The translations under genes were made by a program, and so were the position numbers. Under the pieces are notes generated by a model. It searched no databases. It saw only the letters and a list, made by a program, of their open reading frames with translations, and was not told the DNA's origin. Shown here in pieces: positions 2,535 to 48,317 of a DNA stretch of 64,000 nt. Each line of letters opens with the position of its first letter. Positions within the stretch are counted from its first letter, which is position 1. Source of the DNA: an uncultured Pelagibacteraceae bacterium (GTDB taxonomy: Bacteria > Pseudomonadota > Alphaproteobacteria > Pelagibacterales > Pelagibacteraceae); contig CACJSX010000003.1 of NCBI GenBank assembly GCA_902596185.1, forward strand, positions 1 through 64,000, read 5' to 3'.

Positions 2535-2726
2535 TTATTTGTCTTTTAATAAAATTTTTTTCTTACAAAATTCTTTTGCTTCTTCAATAGTCATTGGTTT
2601 TTCTAATTTTTGACTACCTGCAACGCATGCATCTATAGCTCTTTGAGAGTTATGATCTCTAAAGTCCAGAACAATATAAAGCCCTACAATAATAAAAATT
2701 ATTATTAAAATATTTTTAATTTTCAT
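2535..2726 (-). CDS. Small membrane-anchored protein of unknown function
   Basis: 63 aa ORF with one N-terminal TM helix, packed between operon genes (4-nt overlap with upstream gene). Confidence 0.5.
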   Translation of the reverse strand: MKIKNILIIIFIIVGLYIVLDFRDHNSQRAIDACVAGSQKLEKPMTIEEAKEFCKKKILLKDK

Positions 2727-3502: not shown

Positions 3503-4354
3503 TTAATCAGCTAATCCGTCAGATCTAGCCTGATTTCTTTCTATATGAATTGGTAAAACTTTGCCATAAATAGCTTTGGAATGTTCTGGTGTATTTACTC
3601 TCCATGGATCTAAAACATAAGCTGGAATACACATATATCTTGATTTTTGGCCTTCAACTTTTGTTACCCTATGCAAAGTAAATCTACCTTTAAATATTTG
3701 TAAATCTCCTGGCTCTAACTTCAATTGTCTTACTCTAGTTCTATCTCCTGATATAACTTTTTGAACTTCTTCAAAATTTTCGTTTCCAGGTTCTCTAATA
3801 TTTGGACAGTACTCAAATACACCTCCCTTCTCTGGTTTTTGGATCATTAAACTAAGTGTAAATTCACAACTATCAAAATGCCATGGGAGTACTCCATCTG
3901 GTTTCATAACATTGTACGCATGACATGCTAAAGGATCTGCCCATCTGTAAATAGGAGAAACATCTAAACAAGCAGATACAAATTTTAAAAGTTCTTCAGT
4001 TTCGTATAGATATTTCATCTCTGATTCTTTTGGAAAACAATCTGAATTTAAATATCCATTGTATCTATTCATAAAAGTTCTTTTTGGATGATCTTTTGGT
4101 AATGAAGGGTCATCCTTTGCATACAAGTAAGCATTTATACTCTCTTTGGACATGTAAACTTCGTCTAATTGTTTTTCTAACTCAGAATTCATTACCTTGA
4201 GTGATTTAGGTAAAATAAAATTTGGAATTGTTGAACAGCTATGTTGATCAAGTTCTTCTTTACATTTTTTAATTAGATTTTTAATTATTGGTGAGTTTAA
4301 ATCGTGTATTGGATATTTTTCTAAATCTACAATAGTCTTAAGTCTATCGTTCAT
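3503..4354 (-). CDS. 2OG-Fe(II) oxygenase-like protein
   Basis: 283 aa; HxD...H facial triad candidate (LPWHFDSCEFTLSLMIQ ... GRFTLHRVT). Confidence 0.65.
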   Translation of the reverse strand: MNDRLKTIVDLEKYPIHDLNSPIIKNLIKKCKEELDQHSCSTIPNFILPKSLKVMNSELEKQLDEVYMSKESINAYLYAKDDPSLPKDHPKRTFMNRYNGYLNSDCFPKESEMKYLYETEELLKFVSACLDVSPIYRWADPLACHAYNVMKPDGVLPWHFDSCEFTLSLMIQKPEKGGVFEYCPNIREPGNENFEEVQKVISGDRTRVRQLKLEPGDLQIFKGRFTLHRVTKVEGQKSRYMCIPAYVLDPWRVNTPEHSKAIYGKVLPIHIERNQARSDGLAD

Positions 4355-4735: not shown

Positions 4736-5141
4736 TTTTTATCTCCTCTATTATTTTTGGTGCCCACTTAATTGCATCCTGAGTTGTTACATGAAAATCA
4801 AAATTCTTAGGATTAACAAACATTTGATTTGTGTCTTCAAATCTTCCTTTTTTAATTGTATCGACCCACACTATATAATCTGCAGGAAACAAGCTTCTTG
4901 CCTCAGGAGTTGGTGCAATAAAATCAGCAATTACATAATGACCTTCTGCTTTTAATTTTAAAGCTGCTTCAGCCATTCTTTTTGCTTGTCTTATCCTTCC
5001 TTCTTCTGAAAAATCCCAATCGTTTGCTGCTTTTCTTACCTCATCAGCATTTAATCTTTTGGCATTTAAGTATGGTGCTATTTCATTTGCTAGAGTTGTT
5101 TTGCCAGCTCCAGGCAAACCCATTACTAAAATAATTTTCAT
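4716..5141 (-). CDS. P-loop kinase, adenylylsulfate kinase-like
   Basis: 141 aa; Walker A GLPGAGKTTLA; APS-kinase-like NADEVRKAANDWDFSEEGRIRQAKRM; overlaps next gene by 20 bp. Confidence 0.75.
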   Translation of the reverse strand: MKIILVMGLPGAGKTTLANEIAPYLNAKRLNADEVRKAANDWDFSEEGRIRQAKRMAEAALKLKAEGHYVIADFIAPTPEARSLFPADYIVWVDTIKKGRFEDTNQMFVNPKNFDFHVTTQDAIKWAPKIIEEIKNDTPMG

Positions 5142-6376
5142 TAAATATCTTCTAACGGATGATGGGACATTAATTCAAGTCCATTTTCACCAATTAAATA
5201 CTGTTGTTCAAGTTTTACACCTTCTTTGCCACCAACTTTACCGATATAGCTTTCAACAGTAATGGTCATATTTTTTTGAAAAGTTCCACCACGCTCACCA
5301 CCATCTGTAGGATATCTAATCGCAGGCCACTCATCACATAAACCAATTCCATGAACCATTACTGAATATCGGTTTGGATAATATTCATCTGGTAATACCC
5401 ATGATTTTTCTGTGAATTCCTGAAAAGTAACTCCGTCTTTAATTAATCTAGAATTAAAATCAATTTGCTCCATGGCCATTAAATATAATGTTTTCTGCGC
5501 ATCATTAAATTTATTACCCACAACAAAAGCTCTAGAAATATCTGCACAATATCCATAAGGACCAACCATATCGGTATCAAAAGCAACTATTTCTCCTTGT
5601 TGGATAACTTTATTACTACTTTCTTGCATCCATGGATTTGTTCTTTCACCGGAAGATAAAATTCTACAATCAATCCATTCACCTCCATTTTCAATATTTG
5701 TTTTATGTAGAATTGACCACAATTCATCTTCTGTCATTCCTGGTTTGAGATCTAATCTCATCTTAGATACACCTTTTTCCGCAACTTCTATTGCTGCTTT
5801 CATACAAATTAATTCATCAGGTGATTTTATTACTCTTGCTTGTTCTAAAATAAATTTTGCATCTACAACTTCAATACCTTCTTTATTTAAAGCTGCAACC
5901 GCAGGACCATTTAGAATATCGATTGCAATTTTTTTTGTTTTAAAATAATTTTTTGATAAATCTTTAACTTCATTAATCCATTTTGATAATTGTAGATTTG
6001 CTTGGTCTCCATTACTAAAATAATCCCATGTGATTGCAGGTCTTATTTCGTCAATTAAATTTAAATGCTTTGATAATATTTCACAATTAAAATACTCATA
6101 AAGAATTGTTGGTCCATTGACTGGAACAAAACAATATCTTGTTAAATTATGCATATTGTAGACGCTCATGTTAACAGTATCTAAAGCATAACGAACATTC
6201 ACTGGATCAAAGAGAATACAAGCTTCTAAATTGTTTTTTACTAATTCCTTTCTAACCCTATCTAAACGATATGATCTTAACTTATCAAAATTTATCTCAT
6301 CTTCTCTTAATCTTTTTTTAGTAATAAAATTTTGTCTTGGTTTTATTTCAGGTGCAATTTTTCTACTAAATCTCAT
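5141..6376 (-). CDS. M24-family (creatinase/aminopeptidase fold) protein resembling DMSP lyase DddP
   Basis: 411 aa; FDPVNVRYALDTVNM, NGGEWIDCRILSSGERTNPWMQE, EIVAFDTDMVGPYGYCADISRAF, VMVHGIGLCDEWPAIRYP resemble DddP motifs from memory; no alignment run. Confidence 0.6.
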   Translation of the reverse strand: MRFSRKIAPEIKPRQNFITKKRLREDEINFDKLRSYRLDRVRKELVKNNLEACILFDPVNVRYALDTVNMSVYNMHNLTRYCFVPVNGPTILYEYFNCEILSKHLNLIDEIRPAITWDYFSNGDQANLQLSKWINEVKDLSKNYFKTKKIAIDILNGPAVAALNKEGIEVVDAKFILEQARVIKSPDELICMKAAIEVAEKGVSKMRLDLKPGMTEDELWSILHKTNIENGGEWIDCRILSSGERTNPWMQESSNKVIQQGEIVAFDTDMVGPYGYCADISRAFVVGNKFNDAQKTLYLMAMEQIDFNSRLIKDGVTFQEFTEKSWVLPDEYYPNRYSVMVHGIGLCDEWPAIRYPTDGGERGGTFQKNMTITVESYIGKVGGKEGVKLEQQYLIGENGLELMSHHPLEDI

Positions 6377-6999
6377 AATACCCTATATAACCCTAACCAT
6401 GCGTTAACATCTTTGCTTGCAATGTAGTCAGATTTAAAAAATTCTACTTCTTCCCACTTCTTGCTATCTTTCAGTATATCAATTTTTTTATCAAAACCAT
6501 ACTCTTCATGAATTCCTTCATTTATAGTAAAACAAATCAATCCACCTGGTTTTGTTATTCTTATAAATTCATCTAATGCATTTGGTTTTACATGCCCAAA
6601 AGTAAATGTTCCAACACACATAATTCCACCATAAAAGTTATCCTCAACTTTTATTGGTTTATTTAAATCAACCTTTACTAATTTTTGATAAAGATCTTTT
6701 GGTACAGTATCTAATAGAGTTTGAGATAAATCGGCTCCATGAAAATTTTTAAAACTATATTTTTTAAGCTCCAATCCCACTAAACCTGTTCCACATCCAG
6801 CATCAAAAATTAAAGTATCTTTATTTTTCTCATATTTGTTAAATGTTTCTGCAGTTTCTTTAGGTCCTGTATAGTTCCAATCAACCATATCTCTATTATA
6901 TTTATCTTTGTCTCCCCATTCATCGTAGTACTTCATAACTTCATCAGTAGTTTTAAGCTTATAAATTGGAATTTTGTTTCCTACGTCTTTTTGAGCCAT
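6373..6999 (-). CDS. SAM-dependent class I methyltransferase
   Basis: 208 aa; DTLIFDAGCGTGLVGLEL motif I. Confidence 0.85.
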   Translation of the reverse strand: MAQKDVGNKIPIYKLKTTDEVMKYYDEWGDKDKYNRDMVDWNYTGPKETAETFNKYEKNKDTLIFDAGCGTGLVGLELKKYSFKNFHGADLSQTLLDTVPKDLYQKLVKVDLNKPIKVEDNFYGGIMCVGTFTFGHVKPNALDEFIRITKPGGLICFTINEGIHEEYGFDKKIDILKDSKKWEEVEFFKSDYIASKDVNAWLGLYRVL

Positions 7000-9404
7000 T
7001 AGCTTCTCATTTTTTGACCACTTGGATCATAAAGTGGTTCTTTAATTATTGAGCAATTAAATAAATCTCCATTTATCTCTACTTGAATTTTATTTTCAGA
7101 ATTAATGTTTTTTTGATCAACAAAAGTAAACGCTACACTTTTATTTACAAAATGAGCAAAACCACCTGAAGTTACATAACCAATACTTTGATCTCCATTC
7201 ATAACAGCTTCATTATTTGTTACATCAATATCATTTGTTTCAACAATTAATGGTATGAGTTTATTTGAAGAATTTTCCTTTTGTGCACTTTCTTTACCAA
7301 TAAACTCTTTATCCCAATTAATAAAAACATCTAAGCCTGTCTCTTTTGCAGTAAAATCTGGTCTATAATCTAAAGTCCAAGCTCCCCAATTTTTCTCTAA
7401 CCTCATTGACATTAATGCTCTTCCACCAAATGGTTTAATATTAAATTCTTTTCCAGCTTTCATTAATTCTTCATAAAGTTTTAATTGATAGTGAGGTGCT
7501 ACATAAATTTCGTATCCAAGTTCACCAGTAAATGAAATTCTATTTATTATTGCTGGAACACCCCCAACAAACATTCTTCTAGAATCTCTAAATTTAAATT
7601 TTTCATTTGAAACATCGTCTCTTACAATTTTTTCTAAAACTTTCCTTGAGTTAGGTCCCGCGATAGATAAACCGTGATACTCATCTGATCTATTAGAATA
7701 ACTTAAATTAAATTTATCTAAATGACTCTCAAACCAACGTCTATGCATTTCTTGAGCAGCTCCAGAACCAAACACCATGAATTCATTTTCATCTAAACAA
7801 GCCACGGTTAAATCACCACATAACTTTCCTCTATATGACAACATTGGGGATAAAGATATTCTTCCTGGCTTTGGAAGTCGTCCAGCCATTATGTGATCTA
7901 AAAATTTTCTAGAATCAGGACCTTTGAATTCATGTTTTGAAAAGTTGGCAACTTCTATTAAACCAACATTTTCTCTTACATTAATAACTTCCTTTGAAAC
8001 ATAGTCATGTGATCTTGATCTTTTAATAGTAGGCTCTTCATGAGCATCTTCTTTATTATTTGCAAACCACAAAACATTTTCTAAACCAAAGCTATCTCCC
8101 ATAACAGCACCTTGATTTACAAAACGATCATACAGTGCAGTAGTTTTTTGTTTTCTTCCTTTTGGTAAAGTTTCATTTGGAAAAGTCATAATAAATCTTC
8201 GCTCATAATTTTCCGAAGATTTAATAGTTCCATACTGAGGTGAAGCATAATCTCCAAAACGAGCAACATCCATTGCCCAAACATCAATAGAGGGCTCTCC
8301 ATCTATAATCCATTCAGCAATACATTTCCCAACACCGCCACCTTGGCAAAATCCAGCCATAACACCAACTGCAACCCAATAATTTTTCATACCTGGTACT
8401 GGACCAATTAAAGGGCTTCCGTCTGGACCAAAAGTAAAAGGACCATTAACTATATTTTTTATACCTGCACGCTCTAAAGCTGGCATTCTTTCAAAACCAA
8501 TTGCTAATCTATCTTCTATATTATCTAACTTTGGCTCAAGTAACTCATGACCAAAATTCATTGGTGTACCCTGTACTTTCCAAGGTGTTGATTTTGGCTC
8601 ATAGGTTCCAAGCAACATTCCTTTTCCTTCTTGTCTAAAGTAAATATTTCCCTCAAAATCTGTTCCTATAGGTAGTCTTTGATCGTCCATTGCTTCGATT
8701 TCAGGAATAGGTTCGGTGATTAAATAATGGTGCTCCATTGGTTGAACAGGAAGGTTAAGCCCAGCTAATTGCCCAACTTCTCTTGCCCATAAACCACCAG
8801 CGTTAATTACTATTTGAGCATTAATATTTCCTTTTTCAGTAAAGACATCCCAAGTCCCGTCTTCTTTTTGTTTCGTGTCCTTAACAACTGTGTGAGTGTA
8901 ATATTTTCCACCATGAACTTTTGCAGCTTTTGCAAAAGCATAAGTAACTCCTGATGGATCAACTTCACCATCAATAGGATCCCATAATGCTAGCAAGTAT
9001 CTAGATGGATCAATTAAAGGATGTTTCTTTTTTACTTCCTCTAGAGAAATAAACTCTTGATCAAGTCCCATGTATCTTGCTTTTGATCTTTCTCTTTTTA
9101 AATATTCAGCCCACACTTCGTTTGATGCTAAATAAAATCCTCCACTAGGTTTAAATCCAGTTGAGTGACCAGACTCTTTTTCTATCTCTTTATACAAGCC
9201 TATCGTATAAGCCATCATCCTAGAAATATTTGGATCTGAAGATATTACATGAACATTTCCTGCTGCATGCCAAGACGAACCAGAAGTAAGCTCATTTCTT
9301 TCAAGCAAGATACAATCCTTTAATCCAAATTTAGATAAATGATAAAGAATAGAGCACCCTACTACACCACCTCCTATGATTACTACCTTCGCATGCTTTT
9401 CCAT
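6999..9404 (-). CDS. FAD-dependent oxidoreductase + GcvT fusion, dimethylglycine/sarcosine dehydrogenase-like
   Basis: 801 aa; N-terminal VVIIGGGVVGCSILYHLSKFG, C-terminal GCV_T/GCV_T_C domains (FTGELGYEIYV, GKESAQKEN). Confidence 0.88.
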   Translation of the reverse strand: MEKHAKVVIIGGGVVGCSILYHLSKFGLKDCILLERNELTSGSSWHAAGNVHVISSDPNISRMMAYTIGLYKEIEKESGHSTGFKPSGGFYLASNEVWAEYLKRERSKARYMGLDQEFISLEEVKKKHPLIDPSRYLLALWDPIDGEVDPSGVTYAFAKAAKVHGGKYYTHTVVKDTKQKEDGTWDVFTEKGNINAQIVINAGGLWAREVGQLAGLNLPVQPMEHHYLITEPIPEIEAMDDQRLPIGTDFEGNIYFRQEGKGMLLGTYEPKSTPWKVQGTPMNFGHELLEPKLDNIEDRLAIGFERMPALERAGIKNIVNGPFTFGPDGSPLIGPVPGMKNYWVAVGVMAGFCQGGGVGKCIAEWIIDGEPSIDVWAMDVARFGDYASPQYGTIKSSENYERRFIMTFPNETLPKGRKQKTTALYDRFVNQGAVMGDSFGLENVLWFANNKEDAHEEPTIKRSRSHDYVSKEVINVRENVGLIEVANFSKHEFKGPDSRKFLDHIMAGRLPKPGRISLSPMLSYRGKLCGDLTVACLDENEFMVFGSGAAQEMHRRWFESHLDKFNLSYSNRSDEYHGLSIAGPNSRKVLEKIVRDDVSNEKFKFRDSRRMFVGGVPAIINRISFTGELGYEIYVAPHYQLKLYEELMKAGKEFNIKPFGGRALMSMRLEKNWGAWTLDYRPDFTAKETGLDVFINWDKEFIGKESAQKENSSNKLIPLIVETNDIDVTNNEAVMNGDQSIGYVTSGGFAHFVNKSVAFTFVDQKNINSENKIQVEINGDLFNCSIIKEPLYDPSGQKMRS

Positions 9405-10444
9405 TAGTATTTAATTTCCTTGTTTACTTTTTTTAGAGATTTATCTGTACCATGATGGAAGTGTTTGCTCATATCAGGCATATATTTCATTGAAATTGGT
9501 TTTTTTCCAATTGCAACTGACATTTCTCTTACGTGATGTGCTTCTGCTCCACAACATATACCAATAAAATTTATTTTGTTCTTAACACAATCTTTTGCAA
9601 ACTCTGCCATTTCAAATCTGTTACAAAACAAATTATCTAAAGCTACTGGGAATGCATTTCCCCCTGGAATACAATTACAACCATGATCAGTTATATTTAG
9701 AAAACCAGGTTCTTCCTCTGTTGTTCTGTATGGTACTGGAAGTCCAGCAACATGACATGAAACTTTTTCTCTAACTTTTTTTAATAGTTTCATTGTCATT
9801 TCAGGTCCTCGATAACAATTTAAACCAACTACATCTGCACCTAAATCTTCCATCATTTTGCAAGCATCTTCAGCGGTATGACCTTCTCTAGTTTTGTCTC
9901 CTCTAGGAATAGCAAAATTACAAACTGCAACAAGACCTGCATCCTTGATAGCTTTTAATGCTATCTTCATTTCTTCTGTCCAATTTATGGTTTCTGCAAT
10001 TACAAAATCAACACCAGCTTCTTTCGCCCAAGCTATCTGTTCTTCATACATTTGTTGACATTGTTTATGAGTATTAGCATCACCAGGATCAAATACGTTT
10101 GTATTAGCTACATCTCCACAAACCATTAAATCTAAATCTTTAAATTCATTCGCAGCATCTTTCGCTATCTTAAGAGCATTTTTTTGGAGTGGCTCTAACA
10201 TATCTTCTTTGCCAATAATTCTCAGTTTTTCTCTATGTCCATAATAAGTAAATGCCTGAACAACATCTGATCCAGCTCTAATAAATTCTCTATGTAGCTG
10301 AGTTACTACCTCAGGATGTTCTAAAACTACTTCTGGAACAAATGGACCCGCTGAAAGATAACCTCTTCTTTCCATTGCAAAAAGGTATCCTTCTGCACAC
10401 ATAATAGGTCCTTCATTTAATCTAGTAATAAGATCTTTTTTCAT
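9404..10444 (-). CDS. Betaine--homocysteine S-methyltransferase-like protein
   Basis: 346 aa; GLNCYRGPEM and Zn-binding FIGICCGAEAHHVREM typical of BHMT/homocysteine methyltransferases. Confidence 0.88.
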   Translation of the reverse strand: MKKDLITRLNEGPIMCAEGYLFAMERRGYLSAGPFVPEVVLEHPEVVTQLHREFIRAGSDVVQAFTYYGHREKLRIIGKEDMLEPLQKNALKIAKDAANEFKDLDLMVCGDVANTNVFDPGDANTHKQCQQMYEEQIAWAKEAGVDFVIAETINWTEEMKIALKAIKDAGLVAVCNFAIPRGDKTREGHTAEDACKMMEDLGADVVGLNCYRGPEMTMKLLKKVREKVSCHVAGLPVPYRTTEEEPGFLNITDHGCNCIPGGNAFPVALDNLFCNRFEMAEFAKDCVKNKINFIGICCGAEAHHVREMSVAIGKKPISMKYMPDMSKHFHHGTDKSLKKVNKEIKY

Positions 10445-10455
10445 AATTTATCCTT

Positions 10456-11634
10456 TCATTTCATTATATTATTTGCAACCCATTTGTGGAAATGATGGGT
10501 GGGATTATCCATCACAGGTGAAAAGTTTCCCCCATTATAAGATGGTGATTTTCTCCCATCTTGCATTCCCTCAATTATATTTAAATCTTCACTTTGAACT
10601 CCTTTCCAAAGTTCAAAGTTTTGTTTTCTAAGTGATTTAAATTTTTTCGAATTTGCCGCTTCATTGCCAACATAATAAATTTCCATATGCTCTTTGGTGT
10701 ATTCATTATTTACTGGTTCTAGCCAGTAAGCATAAAAATGGTCTTTATGTATCCCAAGCATAACATTTGGGAAAAGAGCAACATATTCTGCAATATGTTC
10801 TTGATCTTTTGGCCAATTTGGGAATGTTGGAAATTTTAAGTTACTTTTGAACCTTGGGTTATAAACCATTGTACCTTGGCCTGCAAAACGATTTGGTAAT
10901 CCTTGAATATGATAATGATCATCAATTTTTGAGTAAGAGTTTAAACCAGGATGAACCCATGGAAGATGATAACTTTCACAATAATTTTCTATTGCAAACT
11001 TCCAATTGCATTTAGCATTCAAATTAAAATAACCATGATCGTTTGAATAAACTATTAAATCTCTATCCTTTACTGACCAAAATTTTTTCCATCTATCACT
11101 TAAAGGTTTAATATATTTTTCAAAATCAATTTCATTATTATTTAAATTTACAAAAATTAAATCTAACCAAACATTAGATCTAACTTCCTTAAGCCCACTT
11201 TTTGATTTACTAAATTTATTACAATTATGTTTATTCATTCCACCAATATGAGGTGTCGCTATTAGCTTGCCGCTCATATCGTAGGACCAAGAGTGATAAG
11301 GACATCTTATTACATTTTTAATTTTACATTTTTCTTGAAGAATCTTAAATCCTCGATGACTACAAACATTATGAAAAACTTTTATTTTTTTATTTTTATC
11401 TCTTAAAATAATTAATGGTATTCCTAAAAGATCAAATGGTTTTGCATCTCCAACATTGGGAATTGAGCTCCCAACACCAATTACAACCCATTTATTTTCA
11501 AATATTTTTTTTCTTTCAATAGATAAATACTCATTATTAGTATAGCACTCGTTAGGTAGACCATGAGCTTTATCAATATTTTTATTTACTGCTTTTATTT
11601 TTTTTAAATCGACTATGTGTGATAACTTTTTCAT
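10456..11634 (-). CDS. Rieske [2Fe-2S] ring-hydroxylating oxygenase alpha subunit (glycine betaine monooxygenase GbcA-like)
   Basis: 392 aa; Rieske CSHRGF-x18-CPYHSW; catalytic ENYCESYHLPWVHPGL. Confidence 0.82.
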   Translation of the reverse strand: MKKLSHIVDLKKIKAVNKNIDKAHGLPNECYTNNEYLSIERKKIFENKWVVIGVGSSIPNVGDAKPFDLLGIPLIILRDKNKKIKVFHNVCSHRGFKILQEKCKIKNVIRCPYHSWSYDMSGKLIATPHIGGMNKHNCNKFSKSKSGLKEVRSNVWLDLIFVNLNNNEIDFEKYIKPLSDRWKKFWSVKDRDLIVYSNDHGYFNLNAKCNWKFAIENYCESYHLPWVHPGLNSYSKIDDHYHIQGLPNRFAGQGTMVYNPRFKSNLKFPTFPNWPKDQEHIAEYVALFPNVMLGIHKDHFYAYWLEPVNNEYTKEHMEIYYVGNEAANSKKFKSLRKQNFELWKGVQSEDLNIIEGMQDGRKSPSYNGGNFSPVMDNPTHHFHKWVANNIMK

Positions 11635-11910
11635 TTCAACTTTTATTAAACCTCCTTGTTTAAGTTGGAATTAATTAAAGCTAAATTTTTACGATTCTCT
11701 TATTATGATTTGTTGAAATACGGTCTTGCAATTTAAAATATAAACAAACTCTTTGAAAAAAAAATTTGCAGAAAATTTCATTAAAAAACACTATCCCTTA
11801 ATAAATCTTATTTAAAGACAATTTGGCTTCAACTAATAGTTGAAAGATATTTGCAATCTTTTCATTGTTGTGTTCTAGTATTTATTCGAAAATTAACTGA
11901 CGGAGAAATA

Positions 11911-12921
11911 ATGAGAAAATTAAAAACAATACTATTTTCTACGATTTTGGCATTTGGTATGACTTCTTTTGCTAACGCTTGTGGAAAATTAGTGATTGCC
12001 GAACAAAACTGGGCATCAGCCGAGTTAATGGCAAACGTTGATAAAATCATCCTAGAAGAAGGATATGGATGTGACGTAGAATTAGTACCAGGTGCTACTA
12101 TGCCTACATTTACTTCGATGAATGACAAAGGAACACCTGACATGAACCCTGAACAATGGGCTAATGCAGTTTACACTCCTTTAAAAAAAGCAGTAAGTGA
12201 GAAAAGATTAATTATTGCAAACAAGGCACCAATTACTGGTCTAGGTGAAGGTTGGTGGTTAAATCCAGCAGCTTTAAAAAAACATCCAGAGCTTAAAGGG
12301 ATGACAGCAATTCAAATCCTAGAACGTCCTGATTTATTTCCAGACAAAGAAGATCCATCAAAAGGAGCTTTCATGGGATGTCCTGCTGGTTGGGGATGTC
12401 AATTAGCTAACGCTAACCTTTACAGAGCTTTTGATATGGAAAAAAAAGGATGGAAATTAATTGATCCAGGTTCTGCTGCAGGTTTAGATGGTTCTATCGC
12501 TAAAGCTTCAGACTCTGGTGAGCCATGGTTTGGTTATTATTGGAACCCAACTTCAATGGTTGGAAAATATAATTTACAACCAGTAGACTTTGGCGTTCCT
12601 TTTGCAGGAAGAGATAACTGGGATAATTGCATCACCCTAGCGGAGCAAGATTGTGCAAACCCAAAACCAACTGCATGGACAAAATCTGAAGTTAACTCAA
12701 TTGTAAGTGCTAACTTTGCAAAAACTGGTGGAAAAGATGTTCTAAGTTACGTTGAAAATAGAACCTATCCAGGTACTGTAATGAACGGAATGTTGGTTTA
12801 CATGGCTGATAACCAGGCTAAAGGTTCAGATGCTGCAGTTGAGTTTTTAATTAAGCATGAAGATATTTGGACTAAGTGGGTATCTTCAGATGCCGCAAAA
12901 AAAATCAAAAAAAGTTTATAA
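11911..12921 (+). CDS. Glycine betaine/proline-type ABC transporter substrate-binding protein
   Basis: Track ORF starts at 11851; preferred ATG 11911 follows GGAG and yields signal peptide MRKLKTILFSTILAFGMTSFANA; OpuAC/ProX-type sequence. Confidence 0.87.
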   Translation: MRKLKTILFSTILAFGMTSFANACGKLVIAEQNWASAELMANVDKIILEEGYGCDVELVPGATMPTFTSMNDKGTPDMNPEQWANAVYTPLKKAVSEKRLIIANKAPITGLGEGWWLNPAALKKHPELKGMTAIQILERPDLFPDKEDPSKGAFMGCPAGWGCQLANANLYRAFDMEKKGWKLIDPGSAAGLDGSIAKASDSGEPWFGYYWNPTSMVGKYNLQPVDFGVPFAGRDNWDNCITLAEQDCANPKPTAWTKSEVNSIVSANFAKTGGKDVLSYVENRTYPGTVMNGMLVYMADNQAKGSDAAVEFLIKHEDIWTKWVSSDAAKKIKKSL

Positions 12922-12932
12922 TTAACTTTTAA

Positions 12933-12961
12933 TTACGAGCCTATTTAATATAGGCTCGTAA
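12933..12961 (+). promoter_or_regulatory. Intercistronic stem-loop between binding-protein and permease genes
   Basis: ttacgagcctat-ttaat-ataggctcgtaa perfect 12-bp stem, 5-nt loop. Confidence 0.75.
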
Positions 12962-12972
12962 AAAATATATTT

Positions 12973-13857
12973 ATGGAATTTTTTACTGAATTTCCAGAAA
13001 TGGGAAGAAGATCCCAAATGGAGCTAAGAAAGGGTATAGACTTAGCTTTTAGAAATTTTTCAAGAGAATATGGGGATAATATAGAAGCATTTTTTGATCC
13101 ATTATTATTTTTTTTAGTATCATTAGAAAAATTATTATTATCTACACCATGGATAATAATTATTGCAATAATTTGTGGATTAGCATGGTTGGGTTCAAAA
13201 AGTTGGAAATTAGTGGTTGGAAGTGCAATTGCTTTTTTATTAATCGGTTATTTTGGAATGTGGGAAGATTGTATGGCAACAGTTGCAATTATTACTGTAT
13301 GTACAATCATTTGTATTGTTGTTGGTATTCCAATAGGAATTGTAATGGCTAGATCCTCTAGAGCAGAAAAAACAATACTTCCTGTTTTGGATATGATGCA
13401 AACAATACCAAGTTTTGTTTATTTAATACCAATTTTAATGTTGTTAGGTATAGGAAAGGTTCCGGGATTAATTGCTGTTTGTGTTTATGCAGTTCCTCCA
13501 ATTATTAGATTAACTAATTTAGGTATTAGAGAAGTAGATAAAGAGACTTTGGAGGCTAGTGAAGCTTTTGGAGCAACTACAACTCAAAAATTAAAATCTG
13601 TTCAAATTCCGCTAGCTTTACCCACTGTTTTTGCTGGTGTAAACCAAACCATAATGATGGCTTTAGCTATGGTGGTAATTGCTTCTATGATAGGCGTAAA
13701 AGGTCTAGGTGTGCCAATATTAAGAGCTGTTTCTAACCAATATTTGGCTCTTGGTATGATGAATGGATTAGCAATAGTTGCTCTCGCAATTGTCTTTGAT
13801 AGGGTAACTCAAGAATATGGAAGAAGGATCCAAAAGCATAGAGGTCAGATAAAATAG
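12973..13857 (+). CDS. Glycine betaine/proline ABC transporter permease (ProW-like)
   Basis: 294 aa multi-TM; MMQTIPSFVYLIPILMLLGIG...EAFGATTTQKLKSVQIPLALPTVFAGVNQTIMM. Confidence 0.9.
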   Translation: MEFFTEFPEMGRRSQMELRKGIDLAFRNFSREYGDNIEAFFDPLLFFLVSLEKLLLSTPWIIIIAIICGLAWLGSKSWKLVVGSAIAFLLIGYFGMWEDCMATVAIITVCTIICIVVGIPIGIVMARSSRAEKTILPVLDMMQTIPSFVYLIPILMLLGIGKVPGLIAVCVYAVPPIIRLTNLGIREVDKETLEASEAFGATTTQKLKSVQIPLALPTVFAGVNQTIMMALAMVVIASMIGVKGLGVPILRAVSNQYLALGMMNGLAIVALAIVFDRVTQEYGRRIQKHRGQIK

Positions 13858-13919
13858 TTGATACTTTGATGCATCGAATTTTCTAGACTCATATTTCAAA
13901 ATAAATAAAAATCTCCCCT

Positions 13920-14648
13920 ATGAATTTTTCATTGGAAATAGGTCCTAAAACAGAGGTTGATAAAGTTCCAGCATTATCTGATGTTTACATTACCATGCTA
14001 CCTGGAGGTGATTACAGAGAGACTGCTGATAAAGCGATAGAGCTTGTAAAAAAAGGATTCAACCCTGTGCCTCATTTTCCTGCTAGATCAATGCATGATG
14101 AAAAAGAACTTAAAGATTATGTTTCTAGATGCAAAGATGGAGGAGTAAAGCAAGCATTAATTATTGGAGGTGGAAGAGAGCCGGCAGGTAAATTTGATAG
14201 TTCATTTCAACTTTTAGAGACAGGGTATTTTGAAAAAATGAAAATAGGAATTGCTGGACATCCCGAGGGGAGTCCTGATATATCCGACTCAGATTTAGAA
14301 AAAGCTATGATAGATAAAAAGCCTTACGCTGATTATATTGTAACACAATGGTTACTTAATCCTCAGCCTATTATAGATTTTATTTCTAAGCAAAGCGTAC
14401 CAGTGCATGTGGGAATCACTGGGCCTTTAAAAATATCTAGCCTAATTAAATTTGCTAATATTGTAGGGGCAAAAAATTCCTTAAACTTTCTTAAATCTAA
14501 TTTTACTAAGGCATTAGATTTATTGAAACCTAAAGACCCTAATGATTTAATTGGGAAAGTTAAATCGCACACTGATAACTTCCACATTTATACATTCGGC
14601 GGCTTGAAGGAAACTAACAAGTGGTTGAGGGAGAATAGTTATGTCTAA
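13920..14648 (+). CDS. Methylenetetrahydrofolate reductase-like protein (short form)
   Basis: 242 aa; FNPVPHFPARSM...GGGREPAG...GIAGHPEGSPDI MTHFR-like motifs. Confidence 0.8.
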   Translation: MNFSLEIGPKTEVDKVPALSDVYITMLPGGDYRETADKAIELVKKGFNPVPHFPARSMHDEKELKDYVSRCKDGGVKQALIIGGGREPAGKFDSSFQLLETGYFEKMKIGIAGHPEGSPDISDSDLEKAMIDKKPYADYIVTQWLLNPQPIIDFISKQSVPVHVGITGPLKISSLIKFANIVGAKNSLNFLKSNFTKALDLLKPKDPNDLIGKVKSHTDNFHIYTFGGLKETNKWLRENSYV

Positions 14649-15999
14649 TGAATTTGACTATACTAAATTAAAACATGTTACTTCTGTTGATCAATCAGAT
14701 AGAGAAGTACCATACAACTTAAGACAAAGTGGGCCAACAAAAGTTGAAATGTTAATTTCAACAAGGGTAAGAAAATCACCTTATTGGCATTTATCAATGC
14801 AGGCAGGTTGTTGGAGAGCAACTGTATACAATCGTATTTATCACCCAAGAGGTTATGTAAAACCTGAAGATGGTGGAGCTATGGTTGAATACGATGCGAT
14901 CGTAAACCACGTAACAATGTGGAACGTTGCTGTTGAAAGACAAATAAGAGTAAAGGGTCCAGATGCAGAAAAATTTACGGACTATGTAATCACTAGAGAT
15001 GCAACAAAAATTTCTCCAATGAGAGCAAGATACGTAATTTTGTGTAACGCTTACGGCGGAGTTTTAAATGATCCAATTCTTTTAAGAATTTCAGAAGATG
15101 AGTTTTGGTTTTCATTATCAGATTCTGATATTGGAATGTATTTACAAGGTGTTAATGCTGATGGAAGATTCAATTGTACTATTGAAGAAATTGATGTCAG
15201 TCCAGTTCAAATACAAGGACCTAAATCAAAAGCATTAATGAAAGATCTATGTGGAGATCAAGTTGATTTTGATAATATGCCTTTCTACGGCTTAGCAGCA
15301 GCTAAGGTTGGAGGAAGAGATGTTGTAATTTCACAATCTGGTTTCTCAGGAGAAGCTGGTTACGAAATTTATTTAAGAAACTCTACTTTATATGCTGAAG
15401 ATATGTGGAATGCTGTGCTTGCGGCAGGAAAAAAACATAGCTTAATGGTTATTGCTCCTGCTCACCATAGAAGAATTCAAGCGGGTATTCTTTCATGGGG
15501 ACAAGACATGGATCAACAACATAATCCGTTTCAATGTAATTTAGGTTATCAAGTTTCTTTGTCTGGAAAAGGAGAATGGAACAAAACTGCTGATTATGTT
15601 GGTAAGGCTGCACTAGAAAAAATGAAAGATGAATTAAAAGCAGGAAAAAAACCTTACAAACTTCAATTAGTTGGTATGGAATTAGGTGGTAAACCTATTG
15701 ATAATTATGCGCCTGACTTTTGGTTAGTTTCTCCTGAAAGTGGTGGAGATCCAGTAGGATTTTTAACATCACCATGGTGGCATCCTGAAAAGAAAACAAA
15801 CATTGCTATGGGATATGTTCCTTTCGATGGAACGTTGAATGCAAATGGTTTTCCAAAAGGAAAAGTAGGAACTAAATTTAAAGTTCATCTACCTGAAAAA
15901 TATTCAGAAACTCCCGGAATACCTGTGGATGCTGTTGTGGTGGATATTCCATTCAAAGAGTCTTTCAACGCTAACACAAGAGAAGTTGTAGAAGGCTAA
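14641..15999 (+). CDS. DmdA-like / GcvT-superfamily folate-dependent demethylase
   Basis: 452 aa; VYNRIYHPRGY...MWNVAVERQIRVKGPDAEKF...NDPILLRISEDEFWFSLSDSDI...EIDVSPVQIQGPKSKALM resembles DmdA more than housekeeping GcvT; 8-bp overlap with MTHFR. Confidence 0.75.
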   Translation: MSNEFDYTKLKHVTSVDQSDREVPYNLRQSGPTKVEMLISTRVRKSPYWHLSMQAGCWRATVYNRIYHPRGYVKPEDGGAMVEYDAIVNHVTMWNVAVERQIRVKGPDAEKFTDYVITRDATKISPMRARYVILCNAYGGVLNDPILLRISEDEFWFSLSDSDIGMYLQGVNADGRFNCTIEEIDVSPVQIQGPKSKALMKDLCGDQVDFDNMPFYGLAAAKVGGRDVVISQSGFSGEAGYEIYLRNSTLYAEDMWNAVLAAGKKHSLMVIAPAHHRRIQAGILSWGQDMDQQHNPFQCNLGYQVSLSGKGEWNKTADYVGKAALEKMKDELKAGKKPYKLQLVGMELGGKPIDNYAPDFWLVSPESGGDPVGFLTSPWWHPEKKTNIAMGYVPFDGTLNANGFPKGKVGTKFKVHLPEKYSETPGIPVDAVVVDIPFKESFNANTREVVEG

Positions 16000-16007
16000 A
16001 ATTTACT

Positions 16008-16035
16008 AAGGGGGAGCTAATTTCGGCTCCCCCTT
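16008..16035 (+). terminator. Strong intrinsic-type stem-loop after the DmdA-like gene
   Basis: aagggggagc-taatttcg-gctccccctt, 10-bp perfect stem; short T-run. Confidence 0.75.
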
Positions 16036-16044
16036 TCAATTCTG

Positions 16045-25183: not shown

Positions 25184-25772
25184 CTATAAAGACTCAAAGC
25201 CAAACTCTAGAGATGCATCTGTGATAGAATGATATAAAGACTCTCCAAAACTTCTTAAAGCAAATAACCTTACTTTATTTGGATTTTCACCCAACCTATC
25301 AACGGTAAAAGCTATTCCATTATAAGTTGAGTTAATTGAATTATTTTTATTTAATGTATCAAAATTAAAAGGGCATCCCTTTTTTTAAAACTTCTATCGT
25401 ATCATTACCTTCGATTTGAATAATAGCTCTTGAATGTGATAAATCTGTTACAGCAAAGTCTGTATATTTAAATTTATCTTCTATATCATTTATTAAATCT
25501 TTTTTGGTTGAAACTAAAAACCAGTTTTTTGGTCCATTCCATAAAATCCTTGTAGTTTCATTAAATACTACAGTTAAAGGTTCGTTTTTAAATTTTAAAC
25601 CATCAATATCAATGTCCTCAAATGAAACTGAGGAATTTTTGTATTGAAATATTTGAACAATTAATAAATTTTTGATTTCAGATATTTTAAGTAAATTATT
25701 TTCATTTTTACCTTCATAATCTCCAAATTGACCTTTTAAATGAACATTTGTTAAAGCTGAAATTAATGTCAT
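25184..25772 (-). pseudogene. Sarcosine oxidase gamma-like (soxG/mgdD type), apparent single-base frameshift
   Basis: Track ORF 25365-25772 ends EVLKKGMPF*; removing one A from the A7 run at about 25381-25387 continues as [66 protein letters not shown] to 25184. Confidence 0.75.
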
Positions 25773-28765
25773 GATCTAACTCTTTCACCTTTTGGGTCTA
25801 CATAATGTGATGAAACTATCTCAACTGGTATTACTTTGTTTTTAAGTGGTGACATCGCAAAAAGCTTTTGACCAATCATGTTTTTTCCATCTTTTAAAAT
25901 TGCCAAAGAAAAAGGATTATCATATTCAACACTCCAACAAGATGCAGAGATATGACCTAATTTTGGATTTGGTAACGGTGCTTTATCATCTTTAACTAAG
26001 TGAGAGCCTTCTGGTATACTTGTTTGTTTATCTAATGGAACTACGCCCACTATTCTTTGTCTATCTTCAGCTATAAATGCAGATCTTTGTAATGATCTTT
26101 TTCCAATAAAATCTTTCTTTTTGCTAACAAGACCTTCTAAGGCGTTGTCGAATGGAATTGTTCTGCCATCAAGTTCTGATCCAGCAACATGTCCCATTTC
26201 AATTCTAAGAGTTGATAATGCTTCTGTTCCATATGGTTGAATGTTAAATTCCTCACCAACTTCCATTATTTTTTCCCACATGAAATTTCCATAATCAGAT
26301 TCAACATTTACTTCATAAGCAAGCTCGCCTGAGAACGAAATTCTAAATATTCTTGCTTTAACACCAGATAAATCTCCCTCCATATAACCCATGAAAGGCA
26401 AACCTTCATTTGATACATCTAATTTTGGAAATAATTTTTGTAATAAATCTCTAGATTTAGGTCCAGCGATAGCTGCTCCTGCCCACTGTTCTGTAGTTGA
26501 AACTACATTCACATTTAATTCAGGCCAAACTAGTTGCAAATAATATTCTAAATGCGAGAGAACGTTTGCTGCTTGAGCTGTCGTAGTAGTCATATGATAA
26601 TGATTTTCTGAAATTCTTGTAGTTGTTCCGTCATCCATAACAATTCCATCTTCTCTTAACATTACACCATATCTAGCTTTACCAACTGGTAGTTTTAGCC
26701 AAGCATTTGTATAAACTCTATTTAATAACTCTGCTGCATCAGGACCTTTGACATCAATTTTTCCTAAAGTTGTTACGTCACAAACTCCAACATTTGTTCT
26801 TACATTTTTAGCCTCTCTTTTAGAAGCCTCAAATAAATTTTCATTTCCTCTTCTATAATATCTTGGTCTTAACCAAACACCCGCATCAACAAAAACTGCA
26901 TTATTTTTTTCATGCCATGAATGCATTGGAGATTTTCTTGTTGGTTTTGATTGTTTTCCAACCTCTCTTCCTACTATTGCTCCAATAGAAACAGGAGTAT
27001 ATGGGGGTCTGAAAGTTGTATGACCTACCGCAGGAACAACTTTATTTTCAATTTCAGATACTAATTGCAATCCATTTAAATTACTTGTTTTTCCTTGGTC
27101 TGTTGCCATACCTAGAGTTGTATATCTTTTAACGTGTTCAATTGATCGATACCCTTCTCTTAAAGCTATTTCTACATCAGATACCGCTACATCATTTTGA
27201 AAATCTAAAAATCTTTTATAATTTTTACCTTTTGGCAATGGAACACACCAAAACTTATCATGTTGTGAAGATTTTTTTTCAACAACATTTGGAATAGCTA
27301 TCTCATTATCTTTTTTAGTAATTTTTTTTGATAATTCACTTCCTGTTTTAAATGAAGTTTTTAATGTTTCTTCAAGCGAAAATACTCCGTTAGCTGAACC
27401 TAATGTGATTTCATTTTGTTTTGATTGTCCTGGTACAAATGCATCAATTTCTTCTTTAAACTTTGTTTTATTCCCTGATTGTGAAGCTAAATGAATGGTT
27501 GGTGTCCAAAAACCTGAAACACAAATACAGTCACATTCTATATTTTCTATTTTACCAAGTTTTTTTTTGTCTTCAGAAATACTTGCAATATCTGCAGATT
27601 TTACTTTCTTGTATCCTTGTGCTGCAACCACAACATATGAATTTTTAATGTTAATTCCTAAACTTTTTGCTTCATCAATTATTTCTGACTCTGGGTTTTT
27701 TCTTGAGTCTAAAACAACTGTATCTACTCCATGTTTTTTAAATTCAATGGCTGTTTCGTATCCACTATCGTTATTTGTAAATACCAATGGTTTTATTCCA
27801 ACTAAAACACCATATACTTTTAAATATTCTTTGGCAGCTGAAGAAAGCATTACTCCTGGTGTATCATTATTTCCAAAAACTATCGGTCTTTCAATTGATC
27901 CAGAGGAAATTAAAACTTCTTTTGCACGAATGTACCATAACCTTTTGTTAGGGTGATATTTTTTAGTTGCAGGTAAATGATCGCTAACTTTTTCCGACAT
28001 CACAAGCATGTTGTGATCATAGTATCCAAAAATTTGAGATCTATTTTTTACTACAACATTTGGCATTGTTTTTAGCTCAGCAATTATCCCCTCAGCCCAG
28101 TCTTGTCCTGATTGATTACCAATATTGACATCACTAGTTAGTAAAGATCCACCAAATCTTGATTTATCCTCAGCTAAAATTACTTTAGCTCCATTTTTTG
28201 CTGCAGCATATGCACCCGCTAATCCCGAAGGTCCTGAGCCTGCAATTAATAAATCACAATATTCATATTTATGTTCATATCTTTCTTTATCATGTTTAGT
28301 TGAAGCTACACCTAAACCAGCTGCTTTTCTTATAAAAGGTTCATAAATTCGATACCAAAAACTTTTAGGCCACATAAAAGTTTTGTAATAAAAACCTGCT
28401 GGTAAAAAGATTTTTAAAAAATTATTGATTGCACCTATATCAAAATTAACACTTGGCCAACAATTAACACTTTTTGCCTCTAAACCCTCAAATAACTCCT
28501 GCTCAGTGGCTTTAATATTAGGTTCTGTTTCACCATTTCTATAAAGTTGAACTACAGCATAAGGTTCATCTACCCCTGCTCCAAAGAAACCTCTAGGTCT
28601 GTGATACTTAAAACTTCTTCCTACCAAATGAACTCCATTTGCTAATAAAGCTGAAGCTAATGAGTCACCCTCATAACCTAAGTAAGTTTTACCATTAAAC
28701 TTAAAAGATAATTTTTTATCTCTATTTATTAATCCACCATTTTCAATTCTAAAAGCTTGAGTCAT
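25769..28765 (-). CDS. Sarcosine oxidase alpha subunit-like (or NMG dehydrogenase subunit C)
   Basis: 998 aa; N-terminal 2Fe-2S-type region, FAD/NAD region [25 protein letters not shown]-terminal GCV_T. Confidence 0.9.
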
Positions 28766-29034: not shown

Positions 29035-30291
29035 TTACGATATCCAGGTTTTTGTTCCAAGTCCCTTTTCATCAATAAGATGGCCAGTACTAAATCTATT
29101 TAAATTATAACCAGCATTTAATTCGTGAACTCTATCTTGTGCAATTGTGTGTGCAAATGTCCATCCTGATGCAGGCGTCGCTTTAAATCCTCCGTAGCAC
29201 CATCCACAATTTAAATATAATCCTTCAATATGTGTTTTGTCAATAATTGGTGAACCATCCATTGACATATCCATTATACCACCCCAAGTTCTCAACATTT
29301 TTAATTTACTTAAAAATGGCATCATCGCTATTCCTTCAGTTAAAACGTGTTGCAATGTTGGTAAATTTCCTCTCTGAGCATAACTATTGTATCCATCAAG
29401 ATCACCACCCATTACCATCTCACCTTTGTCTGACTGACTTACATAAAAATGTCCTGCACCAAATGTAACTACATTATCAAGCACTGGTTTAATTGGTTCA
29501 GAAACACATGCTTGAAGCAAATGAGTTTCAATTGGTAAAGTCATATTTAATTTTTCAGCTAATATATTTGTGCTACCAGCAACACATAAACCAACTTTTT
29601 TTGCTTTAATATTTCCTCTTGAAGTTCTAATTCCTTTTATTTTGCCAGCGGAAACATCAAACCCAATCACTTCACAATTTTGAATTATATCTACACCCAT
29701 AGAGTCTGCTTGTCGTGCATAACCCCAAGCAACAGCGTCGTGTCTTGCTGTGCCTGCACTTGGTTGCATCAAACCACCAAAAATTGGAAACCTTACATTT
29801 TCAGAAAAGTCAGCCATTGGAATAATTTCTTTAACTTGTTCTCTATTTAAAAGAACTGCATCAATTCCATTTAACCTCATCGAATTTCCTCTTCTCGCAT
29901 ATGCATTCATTTGTGCATCAGAGTGCGCAAGGTTAATTATTCCTCTTGGAGAAAACATTACATTGTAGTTCAAATCCTGACTCATCTTTCTCCATAAATC
30001 CATTCCAAACTCACTGAACAATCCATTTTCATCGTGCATATAATTAGATCTAATAATTGTAGTGTTACGTCCTACATTTCCTCCTCCAATCCAACCTTTC
30101 TCAATAATTGCAACTTTTGAAATGTTGTGCTCTTTGGCAAGGTAATATGCGGTAGCTAATCCATGGCCACCACCACCGATAATCACTACATCGTATTCTT
30201 CTTTAGGTGTTGGATCTTTCCAGGCCAGATCCCAATTTTCATGGTTTGAGAAAGCGTTTTTAACCAAATTAAATATAGAATATTTTTGCAT
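29035..30291 (-). CDS. Sarcosine oxidase beta subunit-like (or NMG dehydrogenase subunit A)
   Basis: 418 aa; YDVVIIGGGGHGLATAYYLAKEHNISKVAIIEKGWIGGGNVGRNTTIIRSNY typical SoxB. Confidence 0.93.
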   Translation of the reverse strand: MQKYSIFNLVKNAFSNHENWDLAWKDPTPKEEYDVVIIGGGGHGLATAYYLAKEHNISKVAIIEKGWIGGGNVGRNTTIIRSNYMHDENGLFSEFGMDLWRKMSQDLNYNVMFSPRGIINLAHSDAQMNAYARRGNSMRLNGIDAVLLNREQVKEIIPMADFSENVRFPIFGGLMQPSAGTARHDAVAWGYARQADSMGVDIIQNCEVIGFDVSAGKIKGIRTSRGNIKAKKVGLCVAGSTNILAEKLNMTLPIETHLLQACVSEPIKPVLDNVVTFGAGHFYVSQSDKGEMVMGGDLDGYNSYAQRGNLPTLQHVLTEGIAMMPFLSKLKMLRTWGGIMDMSMDGSPIIDKTHIEGLYLNCGWCYGGFKATPASGWTFAHTIAQDRVHELNAGYNLNRFSTGHLIDEKGLGTKTWIS

Positions 30292-30422: not shown

Positions 30423-32105
30423 ATGGCCGAAATTAAATCTGACATCCAAATAGCTAGAGAAGCTAAGATGCAGCCAATAAAAGATATTCTTTCAAAGGTT
30501 GGTGTCCCCGATGAAAATTTTGCTTTTAGTCCAATGGGAAGACACATAGCCAAATTAAATCTGGAATATTTGAATACTCTTAAAAAAGAAAATGGTAAAT
30601 TAATTTTAGTTACAGCAATCACTCCCACTCCAGCTGGTGAAGGTAAAACAACAACTTCGGTTGGATTAAACGACGGTTTGAATAAAATTGGAAAAAAATC
30701 TATTGTTTGTTTAAGAGAACCTAGTCTTGGTCCATCATTTGGAATGAAAGGTGGAGCTGCTGGTGGTGGCTATGCCCAAGTAGTACCAATGGAACAAATC
30801 AATCTTCATTTCACAGGTGACTTTCATGCTATTACATCTGCACATAATTTACTATCTGCATTAATTGACAATCATATTTATTGGGGCAACAAACTTAACA
30901 TTGATGTTAGAAGAGTTGTTTGGAGAAGAGTAATGGATATGAATGATAGATCGTTAAGATCTATTATTGTTGATCTGGGAGGAGTAGCTAATGGTTACCC
31001 TAGGCAAGATAGTTTCGATATTACGGTTGCATCCGAGCTTATGGCTATTTTTTGTTTAGCAACAGACTTAAAAGATTTAGAAAACAGAATTGGAAATATT
31101 ACAATTGGTTATACTAGAGATAAGCAAGCAATTTATGCAAAAGATTTAAATGCCCAAGGTCCGATGACTGTTTTACTTAAGGAAGCAATAAGACCCAATG
31201 TAACTCAAACTCTAGAAAACAACCCTGCAATAATTCATGGTGGGCCTTTTGCAAATATTGCACACGGATGTAATTCGGTTATTGCAACTAAAGCTGGACT
31301 TAAATTAGCTGACTACGTTGTAACAGAGGCTGGATTCGGAGCTGATTTGGGAGCTGAAAAATTTCTGGATATTAAGTGCAGAAAATCTGGTCTAAAACCA
31401 GATTGCGTTGTCATTGTTGCAACTATAAGAGCTCTGAAAATGCATGGGGGAGTTGCTAAAGAAGATTTAAAAAAAGAAAATGTATCAGCACTTAAAGAGG
31501 GAATGGTAAATTTACGTAGACATATTAATAATATTAGAAAATTTGGATTACCTGTTACTGTTGCAGTTAATCATTTTATTACTGATACAGAAGATGAAAT
31601 GAAAACCTTGTTAGATTTTTGTAAAACGCAAGGAGTAAAAACTTCTAAATGTACTCATTGGTCAAATGGAAGTGAGGGAACTATTGAGCTGGCTAAAAAT
31701 GTTACAGAAATTTGTGAAGATAAAAAAGATACATTTAAATTTTTATATGAAGATGATCTTCCGTTATTCAAAAAAATAGAAAAAATTGCACAAGAAATTT
31801 ATAGCGCCTCTGAAGTGGTAGCAGATACAAAAGTTAGGCAACAATTAAAAGATTTTGAAGAAAAAGGTTATGGTAAATTACCTGTTTGTATTGCAAAAAC
31901 ACAATATAGTTTTTCAACAGATCCAAATTTAAAAGGTGCTCCCACAGGTCATGTTTTGCCTGTAAGAGAAGTAAGACTTTCTTCTGGTGCTGAATTTATA
32001 GTTGTTGTGTGTGGAGAAATTATGACAATGCCAGGGCTTCCAAGAGTTCCAGCAGCCGACTCTATAAAATTAAATGATAAAGGTGAAATAGAAGGTTTAT
32101 TCTAA
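30423..32105 (+). CDS. fhs: Formate--tetrahydrofolate ligase
   Basis: 560 aa; [59 protein letters not shown]. Confidence 0.97.
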
Positions 32106-46207: not shown

Positions 46208-46210
46208 ATT

Positions 46211-47242: not shown

Positions 47243-47307
47243 AAATTGATTTAAAGTTATATTAAATTCTATAAAATTAAAATGTTAATAATTGTTGCCT
47301 TTCCTCA

Positions 47308-48242: not shown

Positions 48243-48273
48243 ATTTTACACAAAATTATTTAAAAAAAAATCC

Positions 48274-48292
48274 CCCCCAACAATGTTGGGGG
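48274..48292 (-). terminator. Intrinsic terminator after binding-protein gene (minus strand)
   Basis: cccccaac-aat-gttggggg stem with A9 run at 48262-48270 on plus = U-run on minus. Confidence 0.85.
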
Positions 48293-48317
48293 AGATTTAA
48301 AATTTTAACTTTTATCC

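Follow-up and report, generated by a model that had tools for sequence, protein, structure and literature searches.

Introduction

What is the substrate of the putative tetrahydrofolate (THF)-dependent demethylase that SAR11 bacteria encode beside a protein resembling methylenetetrahydrofolate reductase (MTHFR)? We address this question in a 64,000-nucleotide stretch of DNA (the window: positions 1 to 64,000 of contig CACJSX010000003.1, assembly GCA_902596185.1) from an incomplete Pelagibacteraceae (SAR11) genome, labelled G000, which comprises 896 kb in 51 contigs and is 70% complete. The candidate enzyme is a DmdA-like protein of 452 amino acids, and we refer to it and its relatives as the 452 family. 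Glycine betaine is a major osmolyte of the ocean and SAR11 is one of its main consumers, and to our knowledge there is no validated enzyme for the removal of the first betaine methyl group in SAR11, betaine-homocysteine methyltransferase (BHMT) being assigned to this step by annotation only. The BHMT route ties betaine demethylation to the homocysteine supply.

We consider it probable, from comparisons of sequence and gene content, that the 452 protein and its MTHFR partner demethylate glycine betaine in a THF-dependent reaction that does not need B12 and then oxidise the resulting 5-methyl-THF. The gene pair itself is already known as SAR11_1264/1265, published in 2011 (PMC3160333), and the role in glycine betaine breakdown is the new proposal; in a full-text search of the open-access literature, which took in no preprints and few subscription papers, the pair was named in only two papers, and we found no earlier proposal of a betaine role for it.

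The Stable Gene Pair and Its Exchangeable Neighbours

Four genes lie consecutively on the + strand between positions 11911 and 15999, together with the following signals:

11911..12921, + strand: OpuAC-type substrate-binding protein of the DmpX (dimethylsulfoniopropionate, DMSP) kind, allele A, a facultative neighbour (OpuAC 6.9e-43)
12933..12961, + strand: hairpin between the binding-protein and permease genes, perfect 12-bp stem (-18 kcal/mol, z -6.2)
12973..13857, + strand: ATP-binding cassette permease of the ProW/ChoW kind (BPD_transp_1 1.4e-26; choline permease model 269 bits, under its cut-off of 363)
13920..14648, + strand: MTHFR-like protein of 242 amino acids (7xg9, S6MTHFR, E 5.6e-31)
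14641..15999, + strand: DmdA-like GcvT-fold protein of 452 amino acids, putative THF-dependent demethylase (GCV_T 3.1e-39)
14641..14648, + strand: 8-bp overlap ATGTCTAA, in which the MTHFR gene stops and the demethylase gene starts, conserved in SAR11
16008..16036, + strand: terminator-like hairpin closing the unit (-21.1 kcal/mol, z -3.4)

A preliminary description of this DNA had already placed the four genes in this order and noted the overlap, and on both points it was right. Across the approximately 110 loci carrying the DmdA-like gene that we compared, the MTHFR and DmdA-like genes stand together in every SAR11 locus with sufficient upstream sequence, nearly always sharing the 8-bp overlap, which recurs in SAR11 families f1 and f2. 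An Rfam scan of the window gave no riboswitch match.

The same description had taken the four genes as one self-contained module with its own importer. Being consecutive on the same strand, in the window as well as in most of the nearest relatives, they could suggest a single uptake-and-demethylation unit for a DMSP-like compound, but we found no gene for an ATP-binding subunit between 11600 and 16200 or adjoining this interval, the ProV-type ATPases being sited elsewhere (window 46211-47242 and genome contigs C30 and C20), and the hairpin at 12933-12961 probably limits read-through from the binding-protein gene into the permease gene. Moreover, many relatives have neither the binding protein nor the permease between the Rieske oxygenase gene and MTHFR (genomes G003, G005, G013, G026, and G128; contigs such as L031, L038, L056, L065, L070, L078, and L079), and in these loci the Rieske or another gene directly follows MTHFR. 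Where present, they occur as two alleles, A and B, and in the 59 loci having both genes the binding-protein/Rieske pairs are A-A in 27, B-B in 28, B-A in 4, and A-B in 0 (Fisher 9e-13; the Fisher values here and below ignore relatedness and are descriptive only). When the window is aligned with the allele-B contig L009, DNA identity is ~81-97% up to 10.4 kb, is only 65-77% from ~10.4 to 13.9 kb, and recovers to 90-98% at the MTHFR gene. The co-varying alleles and the confined drop in identity place the transporter genes in the Rieske cassette and not with the demethylase, the alleles being exchanged together with Rieske while MTHFR and 452 stay constant. The four genes are therefore not one self-contained module, and the DMSP-like module reading is very improbable; the stable functional unit is the MTHFR and DmdA-like pair at 13920-15999, and the transporter genes are facultative.

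As an observation in its own right, the cassette of binding protein, permease, and divergent Rieske gene (window 10400-13900; L008-L087) has been swapped among close SAR11 relatives whose flanking genes are for the most part ~90% or more identical.

The 452 Family Is Distinct from DmdA and from GcvT

The 452 protein is ~80 amino acids longer than DmdA (452 vs. 369), as the preliminary description remarked, and the identity between its family and DmdA is 31-34%; on the DmdA equivalog model (NF009133) it scores 234 bits and does not reach the cut-off of 410. In a tree of 109 rows, a quick one whose deep branches are unsure, the 35 rows of the 452 family form one clade (SH-aLRT 100), DmdA forms a separate clade (99), and the GcvT, dimethylglycine dehydrogenase (DMGDH), Sox, and Tdm sequences make up a further separate group; the nearest rows outside the 452 family are two unclassified proteins of genome G162.

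The active site was mapped by sequence alignment onto DmdA (3tfh) with the help of the positions in PMC7487153; an AlphaFold model of the 452 protein was not used, given its mean pLDDT of 43 on a shallow alignment. The catalytic Asp and the folate-binding Glu/Tyr pair of DmdA (D108, E204, and Y206) are retained as D144, E242, and Y244, while A28, H34, W197, and Y247 are replaced by R59, R65, F235, and W286, and this Arg/Arg/Phe/Trp signature is common to all 35 members of the family. The replaced Trp is the one described as key for DMSP, with Phe at its position in a non-DmdA clade (PMC7487153); it is numbered W171 there, and we mapped it to W197 of 3tfh by its spacing to the Glu/Tyr pair. By these sequence criteria the 452 family is neither DmdA nor GcvT, having its own clade and its own active-site residues.

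Could the 452 protein nonetheless be a second DMSP demethylase of different affinity? It shares the GcvT fold with DmdA and keeps the folate residues, but its shortfall on the DmdA model, its place outside the DmdA clade, the Phe in place of the DMSP-specific W197, and the two extra Arg residues make this very unlikely. Even less credible is a role as housekeeping aminomethyltransferase (GcvT) or as a folate-binding paralogue lacking catalysis: a GCV_T domain is indeed present, but the protein falls far below all GcvT cut-offs (145/300, 128/236, and 110/459 bits), does not group with GcvT in the tree, and retains the folate and catalytic Asp/Glu/Tyr positions.

Other memberships were tried and rejected, namely Tdm (145 bits vs. 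a cut-off of 1100, DUF1989 absent), the O-demethylases LigM/DesA (36 and 43 bits vs. cut-offs of 580/800), and the MtgB (MTTB) family, as the 452 protein has GCV_T domains only and no PF06253 domain. A fusion with an extra domain was also considered, as G174 and G509 have frames of 860-960 amino acids; at 1e-10 no NCBIfam family matched the additional portion, and these long frames are therefore taken as over-extended reading frames in G+C-rich DNA.

Separately, a second DmdA-like family of ~380 amino acids (G005:C1:330684-331760, L184, L191, and L192) keeps W197 and, with 384 bits, stays short of the DmdA model's cut-off of 410. It is widespread in Alphaproteobacteria and sometimes adjoins an enoyl-CoA hydratase gene like that at window 2723-3502.

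An MTHFR Partner Proposed to Work Oxidatively

The MTHFR-like protein scores below the Pfam cut-off on PF02219 (21.4 vs. 24 bits) and below those of the NCBIfam MTHFR models (25 vs. 310 and 22 vs. 294 bits), and it matches S6MTHFR of Sphingobium (7xg9) over nearly its full length (residues 3-236, E 5.6e-31). S6MTHFR oxidises the 5-methyl-THF produced by the THF-dependent demethylase LigM (PMC12585457), and in Ruegeria pomeroyi MetF2 has been proposed to work in the same sense during growth on betaine (PMC12478193). By analogy, we propose the oxidative direction, from 5-methyl-THF to 5,10-methylene-THF, for the window protein as well, and the parallel supports the earlier suggestion of a DmdA-like demethylase feeding an oxidative MTHFR.

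In SAR11 family f2 (L172, L173, and L181), the MTHFR is ~50% identical to that of the window and adjoins a 452 protein that is 83-85% identical; this gap indicates either a much higher rate of evolution in the MTHFR partner or its replacement.

Gene Distribution Points to Glycine Betaine

R. pomeroyi demethylates betaine with MtgB (PF06253), MtgC, and MtgD, and SAR11 lacks MetH, MetE, and MtgBCD, the B12-dependent system of other marine bacteria, according to the same 2025 study (PMC12478193). HTCC1062 takes the oxidation of betaine methyl groups as far as CO2 (PMC3160333). In a survey of 385 Alphaproteobacteria, 60 carry a DMGDH orthologue at >=1000 bits, and among these 60 the 452 gene and MTTB are nearly mutually exclusive: 12 have 452 only, 46 MTTB only, G391 combines 452 with a weak MTTB, and G162 lacks the two genes (Fisher 1.2e-10). 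Many genomes, G357, G446, G523, G187, and G313 among them, have MTTB as the immediate neighbour of DMGDH, and it is 452 that occupies this DMGDH-adjacent position in G306, G402, G221, G507, and G430. Both states are found within single families, f30 (G174 vs. G304) and f17 (G391 vs. G161 and G470), so that the exchange is not a matter of deep ancestry alone. The window's own genome has no MTTB match.

In Pelagibacterales genomes that are >=90% complete, 452 and DMGDH occur together in 83, 452 alone in 1, DMGDH alone in 4 (one partial), and neither in 17, and genus g5 has members with both genes and members with neither. In 10 of the 15 carriers outside SAR11, 452 lies <=10 kb from a DMGDH-type gene; in family f32, soxBDAG-like genes, a DMGDH-like gene, MTHFR, and 452 follow one another on one strand, and in G391, 452 is followed by MTHFR, fhs, and DMGDH and has soxA/soxB-like genes on the opposite flank. 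The DMGDH subfamily in question is the one closest to mammalian DMGDH (658 bits), and EtfBA follows it in SAR11 and in G306.

Since the pair goes with DMGDH and stands in for MtgB, glycine betaine is indicated as the substrate, and this is most likely so as far as gene distribution can tell. On balance, we favour the view that the 452 protein acts by itself and without cobalamin as a glycine betaine:THF methyltransferase, and that it took the place of the B12-dependent MtgBCD in SAR11 and in several other alphaproteobacterial lineages. The preliminary description thus had the biochemical core, went astray on the module and importer, and missed this tracking and replacement.

Another quaternary ammonium compound, such as proline betaine or a choline-derived or carnitine-derived one, could be demethylated by the 452 protein with THF, the product passing to dimethylglycine/sarcosine or the one-carbon pool and MTHFR working as proposed above. 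The gene company is equally compatible with it, several different betaines serve as substrates within the MTTB family as well (PMC12478193), and a variable island with a carnitine-monooxygenase-like Rieske lies next door; the strict pairing with DMGDH, an enzyme acting on the very compound that betaine demethylation yields, nevertheless leads us to hold this alternative to be rather unlikely.

For SAR11_1265, Sun et al. 2011 speculated on a second demethylation in DMSP breakdown, from methylmercaptopropionate to mercaptopropionate (PMC3160333). DmdA is indeed the nearest characterised relative, and some strains have a DmpX-type binding protein and a DddP-like gene in the vicinity, but six 452 carriers lack DmdA (G221, G391, G430, G455, G507, and G509), three SAR11 genomes have DmdA without 452 (G030, G068, and G078), the partner genes are DMGDH and Sox, and the DmpX-type gene, itself facultative, changes together with Rieske. 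Since DmdA and 452 are each found without the other, we regard this role as improbable. Together with the active-site residues and the separate clade, the same distribution supports the earlier suspicion that an onium compound other than DMSP would be the substrate.

Several observations weigh against glycine betaine and should be kept in mind. SAR11 possesses a human-type BHMT as well, which has been assumed to remove the first betaine methyl group. DMGDH occurs without 452 in G044, G068, and G142; 452 occurs without the main DMGDH subfamily in f32 and in G444, the latter also having strong MTTB, BHMT, and GbcA-like matches; and MTHFR does not adjoin 452 in most carriers outside SAR11. In addition, the co-occurrence profile is correlative and phylogenetically structured, and MTTB members may act on other betaines. 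As alternative first steps, the BHMT model NF005718 and the GbcA model NF058607 were searched and are over or near their cut-offs only in G444; NF005718 may miss BHMT of the human type, and a SAR11 BHMT may therefore still operate. In HTCC1062, bhmT is controlled by an S-adenosylmethionine riboswitch and rises ~34-fold under sulfur limitation, and the mRNA of SAR11_1264/1265 goes down to 0.1-0.2 in stationary cultures (PMC5069961), a pattern that agrees, if weakly, with a use of BHMT in methionine synthesis and a different role for the pair.

Proposed Pathway and Its Meaning

In the proposed mechanism, the 452 protein would move one N-methyl group of glycine betaine directly to THF, giving dimethylglycine and 5-methyl-THF with neither cobalamin nor homocysteine, and the MTHFR-like protein would oxidise the latter to 5,10-methylene-THF. 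This would pool with the methylene-THF from DMGDH and sarcosine oxidase, to be burned via FolD, Fhs, and formate dehydrogenase or to serve as a one-carbon donor. Genes for later steps are present in the window:

25769..28765, - strand: SoxA, sarcosine oxidase alpha subunit, a downstream betaine step (TIGR01372 1320 bits, above cut-off)
29035..30291, - strand: SoxB, sarcosine oxidase beta subunit (TIGR01373 666 bits, above cut-off)
30423..32105, + strand: fhs, formate-THF ligase, for THF one-carbon oxidation (PRK13505 916 bits, above cut-off)

If this is true, 452 and an oxidative MTHFR would be the catabolic entry of betaine in the most abundant bacteria of the ocean, with BHMT left to methionine synthesis, and betaine oxidation without B12 or homocysteine turnover would be explained by a direct THF-dependent enzyme. 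The substrates of the DmdA/GcvT demethylases would also be extended by one of the betaine type, and metagenome studies would gain a marker gene.

The Transporter Genes and the Neighbouring Island

The best solved relative of the window binding protein is the DMSP-binding RnDmpX (7yle; 174 bits, 34% identity), and of the published DMSP pocket of DmpX (W35, T64, W84, E113, W152, A153, Y200, and W202; PMC10030565) it keeps seven of eight residues (W T W E W G Y W), with G in place of A153. The two other OpuAC proteins of the same genome that were compared (contigs C30 and C20) are more distant, at 27% and 23% identity, and lack E113. For DmpX of the SAR11 strain HTCC7211, which shares ~35% identity with its R. 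pomeroyi counterpart, DMSP binding at 100 nM has been reported (PMC10030565), and the window protein may be orthologous to this SAR11 DmpX. The binding protein and permease probably import DMSP or an onium compound like it, relying on an ATPase encoded at another place.

Two further transport clusters were seen. At window 44054-51743, the trimethylamine N-oxide (TMAO) demethylase Tdm (1084 bits, just below the cut-off of 1100) adjoins an OpuAC binding protein, a fused permease, and a ProV-type ATPase, probably a cluster for TMAO uptake and demethylation. At L097 (contig C30 of G000), a full OpuAC/permease/ATPase cluster is flanked by genes, identified by eye, that resemble TauD/gamma-butyrobetaine dioxygenase and 3-hydroxyacyl-CoA dehydrogenase, which suggests carnitine or butyrobetaine use.

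On the other side of the binding-protein gene lies a variable island:

10456..11634, - strand: Rieske oxygenase, with alleles matching those of the binding protein and permease (nearest solved relative: carnitine monooxygenase CntA)
9404..10444, - strand: human-type BHMT homologue (1lt7 human BHMT, 156 bits)
6999..9404, - strand: DMGDH-like FAD/GcvT protein of a subfamily other than the core DMGDH (mammalian DMGDH 580 bits)
5141..6376, - strand: M24 protein of the DddP (DMSP lyase) kind (4rzy 285 bits)

The island DMGDH-like protein is 29-37% identical to the core DMGDH and its relatives. The M24 protein scores 347 bits on the DddP model, whose cut-off is 600, and aligned with 4rzy it keeps six metal ligands, D377, and Y366, with W95 changed to Y; the residue roles are those of the DddP literature. 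Also in this region, window 3503-4354 encodes a 283-amino-acid protein matching Fe/2-oxoglutarate halogenases of the HalD/WelO5 type (45 bits), with homologues 54-91% identical in related SAR11 islands.

Comparison with Known Systems

The closest known counterpart is SAR11_1264/SAR11_1265 of Ca. Pelagibacter ubique HTCC1062, a pair that we infer to be orthologous, with metF adjoining a dmdA-related, gcvT-like aminomethyltransferase gene and with dmgdh (SAR11_1253) nearby, as in the loci compared here; it differs in the substrate guessed for it in 2011, the second DMSP methyl group, glycine betaine not being considered (PMC3160333). With DmdA (3tfh), the 452 protein shares the GcvT fold, the catalytic Asp, the folate Glu/Tyr positions, and presumably THF as the methyl acceptor, whereas its clade, its low identity, its greater length, and the changes A28 to R, H34 to R, W197 to F, and Y247 to W set it apart.

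The window binding protein has seven of the eight pocket residues of the DMSP transporter DmpXWV (PMC10030565) and 34% identity to RnDmpX; unlike DmpXWV, the window cluster has no gene for the ATPase DmpV, and A153 is G in its binding protein. LigM and S6MTHFR of Sphingobium SYK-6 (PMC12585457) likewise couple a THF-dependent demethylase of GcvT descent to an oxidative MTHFR related to that of the window, but the substrates of LigM are aryl methyl ethers, and the 452 protein is outside the LigM family. In function, the nearest parallel would be MtgBCD with MetF2 of R. pomeroyi (PMC12478193), where the proposed net reaction is likewise betaine plus THF to dimethylglycine and methyl-THF, followed by MetF oxidation, and where genes of the MtgB family adjoin the same DMGDH as 452 does. 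The proteins are unrelated, however, and while MtgBCD is cobalamin-dependent and needs three components, the 452 protein would need neither the cofactor nor the additional partners.

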